Shown here piece after piece: positions 923-35,726 of a stretch of DNA of 35,782 bases. Within the stretch, counting starts at the first letter, position 1; the number at the start of each line of letters is the position of its first letter. Source of the stretch: an uncultured Bacteroidota bacterium (GTDB taxonomy: Bacteria > Bacteroidota > Bacteroidia > Chitinophagales > Chitinophagaceae); NCBI GenBank assembly GCA_903887005.1, contig CAISOH010000221.1, positions 1-35,782 of the forward strand, in the 5' to 3' direction. A program made the translations under genes and the position numbers. The notes under the pieces are model-generated. The model had not been told where the DNA came from, searched no databases, and saw nothing but the letters and a program-made list of their open reading frames with translations.

Positions 923-1561
923 TTATTTTATATCTATATTTTCTCCATAATATCTTGCCTGCGTATTAAAAAGCAGGTCGAGGCCCATTTTTACCCTTGC
1001 CAGCTTTTCCCGGAAAGTTGCATCAATATAAGAGTTGCCGTCTTTTGCATTAAAAGCAATGGCGGTAACACGTTTATGGTTGGCTATATAAAGCGCCCTT
1101 TGATTATGGAATTCCTGCGAGATAATAGTAAAATGGTCTTGCCCGAAAATATCCCGGCAGCGAAGTATGCTATCAAGCGTACGAAAACCGGAATTGTCCA
1201 TAAATATTTTGCCGGCAGGTATCCCACTTGCAATGAGGTCGTCTTTCATTATGGCCGGTTCATCATAAGAACCAACATCCTTATATCCGCTTACTATTAT
1301 GAAATCAATTTTCCCGGCCATGTATAAAGCCACCGTCGCATCAATACGGTTTTGATAATACACATTTATTATTTTCCGTCTTTTATCTGCAAATTTTGCA
1401 GTGCCGAGCAAAAGGCCAACTTTATTTTTAGGAATAGTATTTATGTCGGAAAATAATTGTTTTTCTGTTGTCCGGTTAACTATATAATTAATACACCCTA
1501 CAATAGTTATAAGGGAAAATGCAAGAATTATCAGACCTTTAAGCCAAAAACGTTTAAACAT
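923..1561 (-). CDS. sanA: SanA/YdcF-like (DUF218) membrane-anchored protein
   Basis: This 212-residue protein has one N-terminal transmembrane segment (about 9-25) followed by a DUF218 domain. Landmarks are VGLLLGTAK, NRIDATVALY, FIIVSGY and DEPAIMKDDLIASGIP, the usual order in SanA and YdcF proteins. SanA of enterobacteria affects envelope barrier function and vancomycin exclusion; the biochemical activity of the family is not settled. Length and domain order match a full-length SanA. It is the first gene of a probable two-gene minus-strand unit with the truncated hydrolase. The start at 1561 is the only ATG that gives the anchor. The symbol is assigned by family resemblance only. Confidence 0.8.
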   Translation of the reverse strand: MFKRFWLKGLIILAFSLITIVGCINYIVNRTTEKQLFSDINTIPKNKVGLLLGTAKFADKRRKIINVYYQNRIDATVALYMAGKIDFIIVSGYKDVGSYDEPAIMKDDLIASGIPAGKIFMDNSGFRTLDSILRCRDIFGQDHFTIISQEFHNQRALYIANHKRVTAIAFNAKDGNSYIDATFREKLARVKMGLDLLFNTQARYYGENIDIK

Positions 1562-1606
1562 AGATTACTAAAAACGGGAATGCTAATATAGTTTATTTGT
1601 CAGAAT

Positions 1607-1648
1607 AGTATAAAGTCAAAAGTATAAAGTCAAAAGTATAAAGTCGAA
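1607..1648. repeat. Three tandem copies of a 14-bp A-rich unit
   Basis: The unit agtataaagtcaaa occurs at 1607-1620 and 1621-1634, and once more with a single change at 1635-1648. It lies between the divergent SanA-like and pyrophosphatase genes. Similar caaaagt/aaagtc runs occur at other junctions in this window. Confidence 0.9.
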
Positions 1649-1750
1649 AGCTTACCGGATATATCCAATAGCGTTCTGTATTTTCCTTCCGAATATCTTT
1701 CTAATAAAAAAACCTTAACAAAGGTCTTATGATTTTACCAATCAATCAAC

Positions 1751-1758
1751 TATATTTG
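1751..1758 (+). promoter_or_regulatory. Bacteroidota -7 element for hppA
   Basis: TATATTTG matches the Bacteroidota -7 consensus TAnnTTTG and lies 35 bp before the hppA start codon. No clear TTG is seen at the expected -33 distance, so this is a partial match. Confidence 0.5.
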
Positions 1759-1792
1759 CACACTTAAATTTTTATAACAATATATATTAATT

Positions 1793-4051
1793 ATGACTCC
1801 ACTTTTTTACCTCGTACCTGCATTTGGTATTCTGGCTTTGTTGTACACTTTCGTGAAAAGCGCCTGGGTAACCAGGCAAGAAGCCGGAAACGACCGGATG
1901 AGAGAAATTGCCCAATATATTGCGGAAGGCGCCATGGCCTTTCTGAAAGCAGAATATAAAGTGCTTGCTTATTTCGTTGTTATTGCAGCACTTTTGTTGG
2001 CTGTTATGGGTTACAGCAGTTCTAACTGGCTTATCGCTGTTGCTTTTATTATTGGTGCATTTTTTAGTGCTTTAGCAGGATTTATTGGTATGCGGATAGC
2101 TACAAAAGCTAATGTTCGTACGGCACATGCAGCACGTACCAGCCTTAGCAAAGCACTTGCAGTTTCTTTTGGTGGAGGCTCAGTAATGGGTCTTGGTGTT
2201 GCTGGGCTGGCCGTTTTAGGTTTAGGTGGGTTGTTTATTGTCCTGTTAATGCGTTTTGCGCCAGAAGCATTTCATTTGGCGCCTAATGTAATTTACAGTG
2301 CTGATAAAGTATTAGCCGACAATGTAAAATTAGCGATTGAAGTGCTCACCGGATTTTCACTTGGGGCCGAAAGTATAGCCCTTTTTGCACGTGTAGGAGG
2401 TGGTATTTATACTAAGGCTGCTGACGTAGGGGCAGACTTAGTTGGAAAAGTAGAAGCAGGCATACCGGAAGATGATCCCCGCAATCCTGCAACCATTGCA
2501 GATAACGTGGGGGATAATGTGGGAGATGTTGCAGGTATGGGTGCCGATCTATTTGGCTCCTATGTGGCAACTGTTTTGGCAACAATGGTTCTAGGGCAGG
2601 AAACAATTTCTGCGGATAACTTTAGTGGGTTCGCGCCAATACTTTTACCTATGCTTATTGCAGGTACAGGAATTTTATTGTCGATAGTTGGTACTTTATT
2701 TGTAAGAATATCAGACAATGCAGGTTTGAGTACTAAAGCTGTTCAAAATGCACTAAATATGGGTAATTGGGGGTCTATTTTTCTTACAGCGATCACTTCT
2801 TATTTTCTGGTAATGTATTTGTTGCCAGATGATATGACGCTTCGAGAAGTACATTTTTCAAAAAATGGAGTTGTAGGTGCCATATTTGTCGGGCTTGCCG
2901 TAGGTACATTAATGAGTATGATTACCGAGTACTATACAGCAATGGGTAAACGGCCTGTTTTGAGTATAATACGTCAGTCATCGACCGGCAGTGCAACTAA
3001 TATTATTGGTGGCTTGGCTGTAGGTATGGAAAGCACATTTCTACCTATTTTGGTTTTAGCTGCAGGCATTTTTGGTGCCCATGCATGTGCGGGTTTATAT
3101 GGAGTTGCAATAGCTGCTGCAGGTATGATGGCTACCACTGCGATGCAACTTGCTATTGATGCTTTTGGCCCAATAGCTGATAATGCAGGTGGTATTGCGG
3201 AAATGAGTGAACTACCGAAAGAAGTCCGTGAGAAAACCGATATCCTGGATGCTGTAGGTAATACGACAGCAGCTACCGGCAAAGGTTTTGCTATTGCGTC
3301 TGCCGCACTGACTTCATTGGCTTTGTTTGCTGCTTACGTAGGTGTAGTTGAAAAAAATGGGTATGATCTACATAATGCGATCAATATTTATCATGCGGAC
3401 GTGTTGGCAGGTTTGTTTGTTGGTGGTATGATACCATTTATATTCTCATCCTTAGCTATCCGTGCCGTTGGAGAAGCTGCAATGGCAATGGTAGAGGAAG
3501 TACGCCGACAGTTCCGCACTATTCCTGGAATTATGGAGGGTACCGGCAAACCTGAATATGATAAATGTGTAGCTATTTCTACTAATGCGTCGCTTAAGAA
3601 AATGGTACTTCCAGGTGCTATTACCATCATATCCCCACTGTTAGTGGGCTTTATTCTCGGCCCTGAAGTATTGGGTGGTTTCCTGGCTGGCGCTACCGTG
3701 AGCGGTGTATTGATGGGTATGTTCCAGAACAATGCCGGCGGCGCATGGGATAATGCCAAGAAATCATTTGAAAAAGGCGTGGAAATTAACGGTGAGATCT
3801 TTTACAAAAAATCAGAACCGCACAAAGCTTCTGTAACCGGCGATACTGTAGGTGATCCTTTCAAAGATACCTCTGGCCCATCCATGAATATCCTCATTAA
3901 ACTGATGTCTATCGTTGCATTGGTTATTGCACCAACCATTGCTAACCTGCACAGAAATGATGCAGGGCATGAAAAAGCACCGGTAAAAAAAGAAGCTGCT
4001 GCTGCAATAGTAGTTCCAGTTAAAGCTACTACTGTTCAGTCAGTCAATTAA
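1793..4051 (+). CDS. hppA: Membrane-bound ion-pumping pyrophosphatase
   Basis: This is a 752-residue multi-span membrane protein of the H+/Na+-translocating pyrophosphatase family, which hydrolyses PPi and pumps ions out of the cytoplasm. The substrate-binding segment is at residues 211-228 ([18 protein letters not shown]), followed by DNVGDNVGD (237-245). The later [10 protein letters not shown] (489-498) has Ala493 and Gly496 where K+-independent enzymes carry Lys and usually Thr, which predicts a K+-stimulated enzyme. Glu193 (GAES) is in the ion-gate helix, but its position alone does not let me decide between Na+ and H+. A poorly conserved Ala/Val/Lys-rich tail of about 30 residues follows the last helix. 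The gene is monocistronic: it has its own promoter element and a strong terminator. Confidence 0.97.
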
Positions 4052-13618: not shown

Positions 13619-15042
13619 TCAGTCAGTAAATCTAACTTCGTTATCCGGGCGTATTTTCTGCATGGCAAGGTTCATTTTATTGGTGGGATCCATGTCGGGG
13701 TAATGGCGGATGGAGTCATCCATTTTCAGATCGTCTTCATTGACATCATTGATATTGTTGACCCAAATGATGTTTCCTTCGCGGAAGGGCGATGGGCGCT
13801 GAGAAAGGTGGAAGGGAGGCATAATATTCGGAATTGGCAGTTGGCAGTTTGCAGTTGGCCTGCTTTCCCGAGAAGTCGGGACAGGCTGTTCCCCGCAATG
13901 ACGGGAGGCATTGTCACATTTTCAGGAAAAATTTTTTCGGTATCATTTTGTGATAATGATATATTGCCATTTCCTTCATGAGGCTTTGCTATAGCGGGTT
14001 TGGTGCATATAGATGATGGATGGGACATTGTTACATCATTTGCACACATTATCACATCTCTTTTTTTGGAATTGGGAATTGGGAATTCGGAATTTGGATT
14101 GGTATTTGGTTCATTGGAATTTGGAATTTGAGGTTGGGTTGCTTCGTTCCCCGCAATGACAGGTGGTATTGTCACATTTTCAGGAAAAATTTTTTCGGTA
14201 TCATTTTGTGATAATGATATATTGACGTTTCCTTCATGAGGCCTTATTAGAGCGGGTTTGGGGCATATAGAGGATGGATGGGACATTGTTACATCATTTG
14301 CGCACATTATCACATCTCTTTCTCTGGAATTGGGAATTTGGAATTGGGAATTCGGATTAGTATTTGGTTGATCGGAATTGGGAATTTGGGATTGTGTGCC
14401 TGAAGTTATTTCCGCGTTTTGAGATTGAGTTTCAGCCTCAGCCCGCCCCTCTCCGTTATCTCCAAGGGGAGGGGGAGGTGTTACCGGAGAGGTTTGACAG
14501 GGAGCTTCGGGGGTGTCCGGTAATTGTGTTTTTTCATAATTTTCTAGATTATTCATTACCAAATCCATGCGGACTTTCATCATATCCTCGAACGCTGTAT
14601 TTGAATTCAGCACATTACCCATCACATATTGGTCGGCCAGGTTGGTGACTTTTTTGGCGAGTTCGTGATCTTTTTTATTAATAAACTTCAGTAATTCGGT
14701 ATAGGCCTCCATGTAGGCGCCTGTATGCTGACGACTAATGGTATTTGACATTTTCAGCAGTTTGTACATCATGTTGACCTCTTCCATTGTGGGGCAACGT
14801 TCATCTGGTGTGCGATTGTAAATTCTTTGGTTGATGGCATCGAAATGATTGTAGATGTCGTTGATAATAACGGCAGGCGCTTGCCGTATGGCAATTTTCA
14901 TTTCTTCCCATTTGCCATTTTTCATCCACAGGTATATGGTCCGGCGGTGGACGTTGAGAATGTCGGCAATTTCCTGCTGTGTTTTGTCGGTATTGAGATA
15001 GAGCTCTTTAGCGAGTTGCTGTTGTTCGGATTTTGGTTGCAT
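13619..15042 (-). pseudogene. HTH / terminase-small-subunit-like gene with repeat-derived insert and C-terminal frameshift
   Basis: The main frame (13726-15042, 438 codons) begins with a gpP-type helix-turn-helix: KTQQEIADILNVHRRTIYLW at about 19-38, then a helical domain to about residue 175. The rest is Asn/Pro/Ser-rich and includes an 86-residue unit present twice (RDVIMCANDVTMSHPSS, NISLSQNDTEKIFPENVT). The frame ends in translated dispersed-repeat sequence. A second minus-strand frame, 13619-13822, encodes a much more protein-like tail (NIIWVNNINDVNEDDLKMDD, PTNKMNLAMQKIRPDNEVRF), which I take to be the original C-terminus, put out of frame by a repeat insertion at about 13820-13890. Such proteins resemble phage terminase small subunits or transposition regulators; no terminase large subunit is nearby. 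It may still produce a functional DNA-binding N-terminus. Confidence 0.6.
13891..14400. repeat. In-frame 258-bp tandem duplication inside the HTH gene
   Basis: Two adjacent copies start with ccccgcaatgac at 13891 and at 14149, a period of 258 bp or exactly 86 codons. They share long runs such as tgtcacattttcaggaaaaa and tacatcatttgc. Each copy ends in a run of ggaattgggaatt-type simple sequence. The copies differ mainly by point changes, more in the simple-sequence part. Confidence 0.9.
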
Positions 15043-32935: not shown

Positions 32936-33580
32936 TTAATTGGAAATTGCCTGATTATTTTTAAGATAAGTATTTAACCGTCTCACATCTTCAAATGTGT
33001 TTATTAACTCCACCATGCTAAGATTGGCTAATAATAGCGGCCCGTCTTTCAATTTGCCATATTTCTTCTTTTTTTTAGTTCCATTCTTTTCATAACGATA
33101 ATATCTGCTCAAAATTACTCCCAGCCAATATGTTGGATTTGGAATTTCTTCAGGAATTAATTTAAAGACATCGTCATTTTCAAGAGTACCGATGCTTATC
33201 AGATTTTTAGAGTAAGTTTTGATGATACATTTTGGCTGGGATAAAATCCATGCTTCCATTTCCTGCACCATAAAAAATACGTGATTTTCGTATTCAGTTA
33301 ATGTTAGTTCGTGAAGTTTATTTGCTTTTTCAGTTTTAGGGGAATCTGAATCAATCAGTAAAATACAATTGTCTTTTTGTTGTTCACTTTTAAATGATTT
33401 TATAGCTTGTTTATAACCGGCTGCAGGTTCAATTACTAAATTAAAAGAATCTAGTGGGAAAATATTTGACAGTATTATATGAAAACTCTCCCGGAACTTT
33501 TCACTGTTATTGAATGTATCGGCATCAATATTACTATTAGGAAGGACACCGCCTTCCACTATAATTTTTATGTTTACCAT
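32936..33580 (-). CDS. TOPRIM-like (DUF4276-type) protein, partner of the ATPase
   Basis: The 214-residue protein begins with KIIVEGG, placing a Glu (residue 9) as in TOPRIM motif 1, then ILLIDSDSPK (DxD at 77-79) as in motif 2, and VFFMVQEMEAWILSQP (104-117), the segment typical of DUF4276 proteins. TOPRIM-like proteins of OLD, PARIS (AriB) and related modules cut nucleic acid when released or activated by an ATPase partner. Its start overlaps the last 7 bp of the ATPase gene, a strong sign of coupled translation. I propose it is the effector of an anti-phage or anti-plasmid pair. Activity has not been shown by anything in this sequence. Confidence 0.75.
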   Translation of the reverse strand: MVNIKIIVEGGVLPNSNIDADTFNNSEKFRESFHIILSNIFPLDSFNLVIEPAAGYKQAIKSFKSEQQKDNCILLIDSDSPKTEKANKLHELTLTEYENHVFFMVQEMEAWILSQPKCIIKTYSKNLISIGTLENDDVFKLIPEEIPNPTYWLGVILSRYYRYEKNGTKKKKKYGKLKDGPLLLANLSMVELINTFEDVRRLNTYLKNNQAISN

Positions 33581-34803
33581 CTTTTCCCGCCTATTTTACC
33601 TCTTAGCCAAAGTTGTCCAACTAAAAAATCGTCATTCCAATCTTCAAAATCACTTTCCGATTTCCGGGTTACTATTGTTTTGTTGTTGTCATCTTTTTCG
33701 AAAACAAGAACATCTTCTATATCAAATGAATTTAAAAGTTGAGGGGAATGGGTGGCTATTATCAGTTGTGAATTATCAAACGAAGCTTTTTTAATTGCTT
33801 CTGCAATAGTGTTAATCATATCCGGATGAAGACCAATTTCAGGTTCATCTAAACTTACAAGATATCCTCTTTCCGGGTTAAGGAAAATTGATAATAACAA
33901 CAGATATCGCAATGTACCATCAGAAATGTGTAATACACTTACAGTGGTAGCCAAATTTTTTTCTCTTAAAGTTAAATAATATTTATCAGCCCATACATCA
34001 AAATTAATGTCTTTAAAGTTTGGGTTTACCTTTTTTAAATAATCTTCTATTTTTTCATATTGAAGGGTGTGTTGATTTTTTATTCTATGTAAAACTTGAA
34101 CTAAATTTTCACCTGTAGGAAATAATTTGGTTTCAATTCCGCTAAAACTCTTTTGCCTAATGCTGCTTTCAAGTGTCGTATCGAAATAGTCGTAAACAGC
34201 AATAGAATCAATAGCTTGCCTTAAAGTATACAAAGGGAAAAATCTATCAGGATCAGAAATTTGTCTCAAAATAAGTTCCTGTTCTTTAAAAAGAATACTG
34301 CCATTTTCTTGTGGATATTGCTGCCATCCAATATTGCCATCTTCCCTTGTTGAAATAATTCCTTTACCATTTTTCATTTTTAAATAAACAAATGGATCGT
34401 TTCTTCTTTCTTTTTTTTCATTATATAAATACTCCTCTAAATAAAAAGAAGTGATTCCACTTTTATGAATAATTATTTCATAAATCGGGTTGTTTTTAAA
34501 TTTATATCCATTGTTATTAATTACTTTATTTATAACATGGTAATCGAACTCATAAACTAGTTTAATAGTATTAGATTTTGATTCATTAAAATTCGCTACA
34601 GTATTAAAACCTCCCCAATCTTTTAAAAATATTTTTTCTAATCCTTTTCCTGAAATGCTTTCATATAAAAAACGAATAGCTTTAAGAAAATTAGATTTTC
34701 CGCTACCATTAATTCCTACAAGTATATTGACCTTAGGATTTAGTTCTATAGTAGTTGATTCGCTGAACGAGAAAAAATTTTCGATTGTTATACTTTTAAT
34801 CAT
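33574..34803 (-). CDS. AAA/ABC-type ATPase (AAA_21, OLD/AriA-like)
   Basis: The 409-residue protein is an SMC/ABC-type ATPase: Walker A GINGSGKS (30-37), a long middle region, signature-like LHISDGTLRY (291-300), Walker B YLVSLDEPEIGLHPD (314-328, catalytic Glu320), switch His352 in IIATHSPQLL, and a C-terminal WLRGKIGGKRW typical of this ATPase group. Such ATPases act as sensors or scaffolds in OLD, PARIS, AbiL-type and Septu-like modules. The downstream gene overlaps by 7 bp and encodes a TOPRIM-like protein. The start lies 153 bp from the likely divergent terC start; TAACTTTG on the minus strand (34808-34815) is a -7-like match almost touching the ATG, so the mRNA may be leaderless or use a promoter further up. 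The base composition is more A/T-rich than nearby core genes. Confidence 0.9.
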   Translation of the reverse strand: MIKSITIENFFSFSESTTIELNPKVNILVGINGSGKSNFLKAIRFLYESISGKGLEKIFLKDWGGFNTVANFNESKSNTIKLVYEFDYHVINKVINNNGYKFKNNPIYEIIIHKSGITSFYLEEYLYNEKKERRNDPFVYLKMKNGKGIISTREDGNIGWQQYPQENGSILFKEQELILRQISDPDRFFPLYTLRQAIDSIAVYDYFDTTLESSIRQKSFSGIETKLFPTGENLVQVLHRIKNQHTLQYEKIEDYLKKVNPNFKDINFDVWADKYYLTLREKNLATTVSVLHISDGTLRYLLLLSIFLNPERGYLVSLDEPEIGLHPDMINTIAEAIKKASFDNSQLIIATHSPQLLNSFDIEDVLVFEKDDNNKTIVTRKSESDFEDWNDDFLVGQLWLRGKIGGKRW

Positions 34804-34876
34804 TTCACAAAGTTATGGTTAAAAGTAAAAATCTTTATGCAAATAGTATATTTATACCAAGTAGTATTTTTAGGCT

Positions 34877-34908
34877 TTTGGGGGCTAACACATATTTGGG
34901 TACTTTTG
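34877..34908 (+). promoter_or_regulatory. Promoter of the terC-like gene
   Basis: TTTG (34877-34880) and TACTTTTG (34901-34908) are separated by 20 bp, a full match to the Bacteroidota promoter. Its position argues that the open frame starting at 34815 is not translated from there and that ATG 34956 is the true start. Confidence 0.75.
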
Positions 34909-34955
34909 CAGGTTTATATGGAAGGCAGGAAAGCGGTCGAAAATTATTTTATTAC

Positions 34956-35726
34956 ATGAACTTACTCGTACAAGAGATAATAAGAGATCCTGTTGCTACA
35001 TTACTTATAATCGGGAACCTCATTATTATTGAAAGCCTGCTTTCAGTTGACAATGCCGCAGTGCTGGCAACCATGGTAATGGAATTACCAAAACGGCAAA
35101 GGAAAAAGGCATTGCAATTCGGGATATTCGGGGCTTATCTGTTTAGGGGTATTTGTCTTTTTTTAGCATCTTATCTTGTGAAGATATGGTGGTTGAAGGT
35201 TCTTGGAGGCTTATATCTGATCTACCTTGTTTGGGATTGGTGGAATAAGAAAAGGAAAAAAGAAACCGGAAAAAATGAAATAAAAAGGGAAAATAGCTGG
35301 TTATATAAAGTTACGGTTGGGCGTTTGGGTCATTTCTGGGCAATTGTCATTTCAGTGGAATTGATGGATCTTGCTTTTTCAATGGACAATGTATTTGCGG
35401 CAGTAGCTTTCTCAAATAATATCCTGATCATTCTTTGTGGTGTATTTATTGGTATCCTCGCTATGCGGTTTGTGGCACAAGGTTTTGTAAAGCTCATGGA
35501 GCGCTACCCATTTCTGGAGGGTAGTGCGTACGCAGTAATTGGTGTTCTTGGAATAAAGCTGACTTTATCTTTGTTCGAGCATTTGTATCCGGAATCAAAT
35601 GTTAGTAAAACTTTAGGTAGCCATGAGGTTGATTGGTTAACATCTATTATTACAATACTCATTTTTTTCGTTCCAATACTTACAAGTGTATTGTTCAATT
35701 TTCCAGGGAGAAAAAAAAATGATTAA
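34956..35726 (+). CDS. TerC-family integral membrane protein
   Basis: From ATG 34956 the protein has 256 residues and about seven membrane spans. Both TerC hallmark acidic motifs are present: IIIESLLSVDNAAVLATMV and ELMDLAFSMDNVFAAVAFSN. TerC proteins are linked to tellurite resistance and, in characterised bacteria, to Mn2+ export during metallation of secreted proteins. The frame is open back to 34815, but that stretch lacks membrane or TerC character and contains the promoter, so I exclude it. It diverges from the ATPase gene. Metal specificity is not readable here. Confidence 0.9.
   Translation: MNLLVQEIIRDPVATLLIIGNLIIIESLLSVDNAAVLATMVMELPKRQRKKALQFGIFGAYLFRGICLFLASYLVKIWWLKVLGGLYLIYLVWDWWNKKRKKETGKNEIKRENSWLYKVTVGRLGHFWAIVISVELMDLAFSMDNVFAAVAFSNNILIILCGVFIGILAMRFVAQGFVKLMERYPFLEGSAYAVIGVLGIKLTLSLFEHLYPESNVSKTLGSHEVDWLTSIITILIFFVPILTSVLFNFPGRKKND

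Follow-up and report, generated by a model that had tools for sequence, protein, structure and literature searches.

In this study, two overlapping genes at positions 32,936 to 34,803 of contig CAISOH010000221.1 (assembly GCA_903887005.1), from an uncultured bacterium of the Chitinophagaceae, were analyzed computationally; the whole stretch of 35,782 nucleotides is referred to below as the window. The genes encode an ATPase of the ABC/SMC type and a 214-residue partner of the DUF4276 family, and the pair is a divergent member of HEC-01, a candidate anti-phage system that had already been catalogued. It is probable that the pair acts as a HEC-01-type module, in which an ATPase with an ABC/SMC-type head would sense infection, or be switched by it, and control a metal-dependent DUF4276 nuclease with a Toprim fold, and in which the outcome would be anti-phage, probably abortive. 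Two observations are new here: the second acid of Toprim motif I is lacking in most partners of the window's type, and six pairs of an ATPase and a Toprim-like protein occur in one genome.

Identification of the pair as a divergent HEC-01 member

The open reading frame (ORF) of the ATPase (34803 to 33574, 409 amino acids) and that of the partner (33580 to 32936, 214 amino acids) both lie on the minus strand, which was absent from the initial annotation of this stretch. As that annotation had described, the frames overlap by 7 bp (33574-33580, minus strand), where the ATPase ends (W-stop) and the partner begins (M-V); the same overlap was found in 25 of the 30 loci with both genes, the window included. 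Searches against PADLOC-DB of 2023 gave HEC-01A as the best model for the ATPase (1.9e-74) and HEC-01B (PDLC04201; 6.6e-15, residues 1-209) as the best for the partner. Since both proteins were best matched by the two component model sets of HEC-01, the module was already catalogued, and the suggestion that it was newly found did not hold. The best HEC-01B model gave the partner only 53 bits, which makes the window pair a divergent subtype. HEC reportedly stands for Hma-embedded candidate, a term said to come from a 2024 preprint by Payne et al.; no Hma embedding was seen here, as PADLOC returned no hit at 1e-5 among the 10 window proteins scanned, the right-hand side being cut off by the contig end. 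Such embedding, from which the name derives, was not regarded as a requirement for belonging to HEC-01.

The ATPase (33574-34803, minus strand; HEC-01A type, Pfam AAA_21/AAA_15) matched AAA_21 at 109.4 bits against a cut-off of 27, and no NCBIfam cut-off was reached among the 25 matches listed, the family tables holding the best 25 rows. Its AlphaFold2 (AF2) model had a predicted local distance difference test (pLDDT) score of 88.3 and a predicted template modeling (pTM) score of 0.88, and in Foldseek it was matched best by retron IA/PtuA complexes, followed by SMC/Rad50 heads, OLD and GajA. The residues named in the initial annotation were in place in both proteins, and conservation was assessed in 28-row alignments (A1 without L018, L026 and L031, which are broken or fragments; A2 without L006, L026 and L031). 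In the ATPase, the Walker A motif GINGSGKS (residues 30-37; 34693-34716, minus strand) keeps G30, G35 and K36 in 28 of 28 rows, with S37 in 26 and threonine in 2. The ABC signature-like SDGT (residues 294-297; 33913-33924, minus strand) keeps S294 and G296 in all 28 rows and D295 in 27, and the stretch resembling Walker B and D-loop (residues 315-328, ending DEPE..LHPD; 33820-33861, minus strand) keeps E320, E322, H326 and D328 throughout, with aspartate at D319 in 24 rows and glutamate in 4. The H-loop histidine, H352 (in THS; 33748-33750, minus strand), is present in 28 of 28. The C-terminal tail GGKRW (33577-33591) is also well conserved (G405, G406 and R408 in 28 of 28 rows, W409 in 27); it is kept as well in L008 and L019, whose genes do not overlap, and therefore is probably retained for the sake of the protein. 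The tail may contact the partner.

Several known systems are close to the pair. PARIS (AriA/AriB) shares its general logic and likewise consists of two genes, an ATPase and a Toprim-type partner, but its effector is DUF4435, whereas that of the window pair is DUF4276, and the ATPases lie on separate branches. AbiL/RloB pairs likewise combine an ATPase with a small partner, and the AbiLi model matched the window ATPase at 9.7e-34, but the partner was unmatched by their AbiLii/RloB type. Searches of Pfam and PADLOC at E 1 gave no hit of the partner to AriB/DUF4435 and none to RloB/AbiLii. The earlier proposal of a candidate defence module with an ATPase and a Toprim-like protein, distinct from PARIS, was borne out by the missing AriB/DUF4435 match and the separate ATPase branch. 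Among solved structures, the ATPase model came closest to Septu/retron PtuA, whose partner is the HNH nuclease PtuB and not a DUF4276 protein.

Predicted Toprim fold and candidate active site of the partner

The partner (32936-33580, minus strand; HEC-01B type, a predicted Toprim-fold nuclease) matched DUF4276 (PF14103) over residues 54-201 at 35.5 bits, above the Pfam cut-off of 30.2, which agreed with the earlier assignment to this family; NCBIfam gave zero matches. In hhalign comparisons (HEC-01B set without L018, L026, L027 and L031; RloB profile without L151 and L153), the set of window-type partners scored 98.3% to divergent DUF4276 and 94.5% to classic DUF4276.

Toprim domains are recognized by an alternating beta/alpha core with a glutamate after strand 1 and a DxD motif after strand 3. 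The AF2 model of the partner (pLDDT 83.8, pTM 0.78) contained predicted strands at residues 2-9, 46-53 and 71-77 and helices at 20-38 and 56-67, which is the alternating Toprim order; E9 closes strand 1 and D77-x-D79 closes strand 3. The Toprim fold that the initial annotation had supposed for the 214-residue protein was thereby recovered as a predicted topology. The best Foldseek match was 6nk8_B, the C-terminal Toprim region of OLD (prob 0.97, E 7.4e-3, TM 0.45), so that the structural support for Toprim is moderate. The window-type partners matched OLD in hhalign at 43.5% (E 2.4e-4, against E 0.74 for the reversed control) over a stretch ending in the DxD. Their scores to RloB (0.4%) and to DUF4435 (0.2%, from 3 DUF4435 rows) were at control level. 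Classic DUF4276 reached 25.6% to RloB (E 7.5e-4, 16 columns) and 25.4% to DUF4435 (E 7.6e-4, 40 columns), and divergent DUF4276 reached 11.3% and 14.1%, respectively, with reversed controls of at most 0.6%; this faint signal hints that DUF4276, RloB and DUF4435 are distantly akin.

The candidate active site of the partner is strongly conserved. The motif I glutamate E9 (in VEGG; 33554-33556, minus strand), at the end of predicted strand 2-9, is present in 28 of 28 rows, as are D77 and D79 of the DSD at residues 77-79 (33344-33352, minus strand), which closes predicted strand 71-77. The segment MVQEMEAWIL (residues 104-113, M104 to L113; 33242-33271, minus strand) keeps M104, Q106, E109 and W111 in every row, and K176 (33053-33055, minus strand) is likewise invariant. 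In BpOLD, metal A is bound by E400, D455 and D457 and metal B by E404, T506 and E508, and K562 is catalytic (PMC7049728). By order along the chain, E9, D77, D79, E109 and K176 are candidate counterparts of these residues; by this analogy E109 is a candidate second metal ligand and K176 a candidate counterpart of the catalytic lysine/arginine of OLD (K562 of BpOLD).

One position departs from the pattern of OLD. An acid four residues after the motif I glutamate (E404-type) was found in 11 of 12 classic and 8 of 12 divergent DUF4276 proteins, counts that come from a simple pattern which failed on 2 proteins and may be misplaced in others, for example L038. Window-type partners carry at this position an insert with aspartate in 22 of 28 rows and N24 in the window (residues 9-26, 33503-33556); L047 and L048, outlying window-type partners from the class survey, retain the acid after the motif I glutamate. 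As judged from the alignments, the absence of the second motif I acid in window-type partners is only a lead toward a possible difference in the active site.

These features bear on the possibility that the pair is a split nuclease like OLD or Gabija, in which a stable complex of ATPase and Toprim protein would cut phage DNA directly, with the ATPase gating access and no cell suicide. OLD nucleases (Class 1, and Class 2/GajA) likewise join an ABC ATPase to a Toprim domain, though in a single chain and not, as here, in two genes. No fold other than the OLD Toprim region gave the partner a credible match, OLD and GajA heads are among the matches of the ATPase model, and by the pairing proposed above the residues E, D, D, E and K correspond in order to metal A, metal B and K562 of BpOLD. 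On the other hand, the best matches of the ATPase are retron/PtuA chains and not OLD, and the second motif I acid present in OLD is lacking in 27 of 28 window-type partners, L008 being the exception. A split nuclease of this kind was judged rather unlikely.

Linkage of the two genes

Partner relatives were drawn from 99 related genomes, of which 7 matched, the window's own included, together with 23 GTDB loci. In these partner-drawn loci the ATPase gene adjoins the partner gene in 30 of 31, window included (tblastn), and the exception, L031, holds only a partner fragment. A survey of the class with PF14103 found DUF4276 in 34 of 296 genomes; 30 of the 43 matches had loci that were examined, one being the window, and an upstream ORF on the same strand carried Walker A together with a Walker B-type pattern in 24, Walker A only in 4, Walker B only in 1 and neither in 1. 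In the phylum, the partner profile matched 16 of 392 genomes, and 16 of 17 loci showed both Walker patterns, the remaining locus lying at a contig start. In the reverse direction, hmmsearch recovered a DUF4276-type partner in 28 of 30 ATPase loci (window among them); one of the other two is cut by the contig end 57 bp past the ATPase, and the other is possibly broken. The terC/GNAT loci of the genus, used as a control, showed both Walker patterns in 0 of 57 and Walker A only in 2 of 57. The rarity of joint occurrence that would have spoken against the initial annotation was not observed in any of these surveys.

Furthermore, a mirror-tree comparison of 26 loci gave r 0.896, with 0 of 5000 permutations equal or higher, and some of this correlation arises from shared ancestry by itself. 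Both genes are under purifying selection: dN/dS (the ratio of nonsynonymous to synonymous substitution) was 0.06-0.18 in 8 of 12 comparisons within the genus, and dS was saturated in the other 4. Clustering of 127 neighbouring ORFs from 22 related loci yielded no group present in more than 4 loci and hence no third conserved gene; the widest cluster comprised three Oscillatoria/Laspinema loci and one other. Fusions of ATPase and partner were absent among the 17 phylum-survey matches listed, in which the largest open frame had 262 amino acids. Copies of the pair with stops or frame changes were seen in other genomes (L018:1339-1980, L026:4725-6570 and L240), reflecting either turnover of an accessory module or assembly errors.

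The near-obligate linkage, with the ATPase gene upstream and mostly overlapping, would also be expected of a toxin-antitoxin-like or maintenance pair, in which a toxic nuclease partner is restrained by the ATPase and the genes are kept mainly through addiction and less through phage defence; the Pfam text for AAA_21 reads 'putative AbiEii toxin, Type IV TA system'. The plasmid collection, however, contained no match, and the mechanism overlaps that of PARIS, which makes the two hard to separate. Maintenance through addiction appears distinctly improbable.

Lineages of the ATPase

A tree of 74 ATPases was built by a quick method; it included the window, L046-L048 and only 18 further ATPases of HEC-01 loci, and left out L044 (a fragment) and L051 (Walker A absent from the available stretch). 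The six partner classes required 7 changes on this tree, compared with a minimum of 5 and a mean of 44.8 after shuffling. The 22 window-type ATPases formed one branch (support 100 in the Shimodaira-Hasegawa-like approximate likelihood ratio test, SH-aLRT), to which none of the 3 ATPases with DUF4435 partners belonged. A second branch (support 99) united the 12 ATPases of classic DUF4276 proteins. Counting against partner-bound lineages, 4 of 14 divergent DUF4276 ATPases fell beside OLD/DUF4435 or RloB ATPases, and the changes per class were 5 for divergent DUF4276, 3 for OLD, 2 for RloB and 2 for DUF4435; the deep joins are unsure because long branches meet. By this tree, the partner families appear largely to have kept their own ATPase lineages.

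The initial annotation had proposed that DUF4276 replaced DUF4435 in the window pair, making it a variant of PARIS with an exchanged effector on an AriA-type ATPase. AriA models do match the ATPase (6.7e-32), and an AriA/AriB-like pair exists in the same genome, but HEC-01A scores far better, the partner has no AriB match, its hhalign score to DUF4435 is at control level, and the window-type ATPases stand on their own branch. Since ATPases largely group by partner type, a swap of effector is improbable, and an exchange on an AriA chassis was rejected as disfavoured by the tree; a PARIS variant of this origin is hardly credible.

ATPases 57-62% identical to that of the window were found in Bacteroidota, Desulfobacterales/Desulfococcaceae, Cyanobacteria and Thiotrichaceae, whereas in G070 and G092, genomes from the same order, the ATPases were only 37-47% identical to it. 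The phylum changes on the tree, however, equalled the minimum of 3, and the identities do no more than suggest a possible transfer between phyla.

The pair as an accessory insert

In the genus, the pair was found in 4 of 35 genomes (the window's own, G000, and G014, G019 and G026). Its flanks are core genes, as previously claimed: terC (Pfam TerC) was matched in 32 of 35 genomes, and the gene that the initial annotation named GNAT-like, which gave no Pfam hit at E 1, in 33 of 35. The order in the window is terC, the pair and the GNAT-like gene, and in G016 terC adjoins the GNAT-like gene with no pair; DNA similarity between the window and G016 ends at the partner stop codon (32937) and restarts in terC (34995). 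In G014 the pair is flanked by a DEAD-box helicase gene on one side and the GNAT-like gene on the other, and these two genes adjoin without the pair in 7 other loci. The pair lies beside YajQ in G019 and G026, and it was not seen in the DNA covered at the remaining 28 of 30 YajQ loci, several of which are cut by contig ends. The gene names used here (DEAD-box helicase, YajQ, bshA, MORN, SanA, pyrophosphatase) are tentative readings of the translations. The A/T-richness noted earlier was confirmed, with a guanine-plus-cytosine content of 0.299 for the pair, 0.398 for the remainder of the window and 0.360 for the lowest of 22 other scored genes; in all 4 carrier genomes of the genus, the pair was 7-10 points under its surroundings. 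The pair behaves as an accessory module, which is common for defence genes.

It was also considered that the pair might serve the cell itself, by repairing DNA, handling chromosomes or controlling the cell cycle, in a housekeeping role. The SMC/Rad50-type head of the ATPase and the lack of a defence match among the scanned window neighbours are compatible with it, and for Cran1, an archaeal OLD-family ATPase, a role of the housekeeping type has been reported (PMC12796447). Such a role is very improbable for a low-GC insert carried by so few genomes of the genus, with pair-less sites in the others.

Around related loci, a nominal excess of defence matches was counted. The 127 ORFs around 22 related loci matched 80 PADLOC families at 1e-8 (25 listed), and 127 control ORFs (random from 154 in 20 arbitrary regions of single-contig relatives) matched 8, a comparison that counts families and not proteins, in which several models fire per protein and the control is unmatched by phylum. 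As far as the flank of L062 indicates, the window is the whole contig; it ends 56 bp past terC, and its right-hand neighbourhood is therefore invisible.

Proposed mode of action

In the proposed HEC-01-type module, the ATPase would sense infection, or be switched by it, through cell or phage factors; it would hold or activate its partner, a putative metal-dependent Toprim nuclease, and the result would be anti-phage defence, probably abortive. We infer a physical complex, nuclease activity, a target and a phage trigger, and a role in defence is suggested by the family assignment, the patchy occurrence and analogy. In PARIS, the ATPase AriA detects phage triggers, and AriB is set free as a tRNA-cleaving dimer (PMC12409363); in OLD enzymes, ATPase and nuclease reside in one chain and DNA is cut (PMC7049728). 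Restraint of the nuclease until infection, as in PARIS, is only moderately more likely than an OLD-like complex cutting DNA directly; it is favoured on the ground that the partner is a small protein of its own, encoded by a gene that almost never occurs without the ATPase gene. Activity has been described for HEC-04 and for several HECs including HEC-06 (PMC12111858, PMC12988326).

Several results weigh against the defence module proposed here. The partner had no Foldseek match at E of 0.001 or below, its profile aligned with OLD over 55 columns, and neither the partner nor its profile had a credible sequence match to any solved structure; the near-absence of the second motif I acid, present in OLD enzymes, points the same way. 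Other defence genes were absent among the 10 window proteins scanned with PADLOC. In addition, the partner was unmatched in the plasmid and phage collections (tblastn) at the settings used, and viral contigs gave no profile match to it, a search with one short pattern that relatives could escape. No experiment on HEC-01 itself was found in the portions of the literature available.

The literature search found no paper naming DUF4276, which is still a 'domain of unknown function', and no paper naming both HEC-01 and PADLOC; a looser search for HEC-01 gave unrelated titles among the matches listed. The near-constant pairing with its own kind of ATPase, together with Toprim-type residues, provides a concrete hypothesis for DUF4276 as a restrained Toprim nuclease, and residues for mutation are K36, E320 and H352 of the ATPase and E9, D77, D79, E109 and K176 of the partner. 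If true, with tRNA or DNA as substrate, this would be another split ATPase-Toprim system beside PARIS.

Companion pairs in the same genome

The window's genome contains six pairs of an ATPase and a Toprim-like, or suspected Toprim-like, protein, which was above our expectation. Besides the window pair, two further DUF4276 pairs with HEC-01 models as best matches lie on C204 (L126:4434-6034) and C349 (L127:5148-7214), an AriA/AriB-like pair on C126 (L141:1309-3325), an AbiL-like pair on C1 (L151:160-2091) and a PDC-M31-like pair on C369 (L153:12-1830); the partners in these five are of the DUF4276, DUF4435 or RloB type. The pairs on C204 and C349 sit among seemingly housekeeping genes, and the surroundings of the other three were covered for only about 1.5 kb. 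A broader interpretation can be offered tentatively: DUF4276 pairs may form a separate, anciently co-evolving lineage of immune modules with split ATPase and Toprim proteins, parallel to PARIS and AbiL and not descended from them through swapping; the active site of the window subtype may have been remodelled, with the insert and its conserved aspartate (N24 here) replacing the second motif I acid, which would hint at a different substrate or metal chemistry; and the host may stack its six pairs, of four catalogued types and solitary in the DNA covered, as a layered repertoire.

Additional observations on the window

For terC, the start given in the ORF list is probably 47 codons too far upstream (affected stretch 34815-34955). 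Most terC relatives match only from about residue 45, and therefore the start may be at 34956, leaving a divergent promoter region of about 150 bp. In G014 (L123:6980-10001), genes that are presumably SanA-like and proton-pyrophosphatase-like directly follow the GNAT-like gene; in the window (923-4051) about 28 kb separates them from that gene, so that the gene order beside the pair differs. Lastly, the window contains an ORF of 438 amino acids (13726-15042) that gave no PADLOC match and carries internal repeats, for example of PHPSSIC and PPVIAGN.

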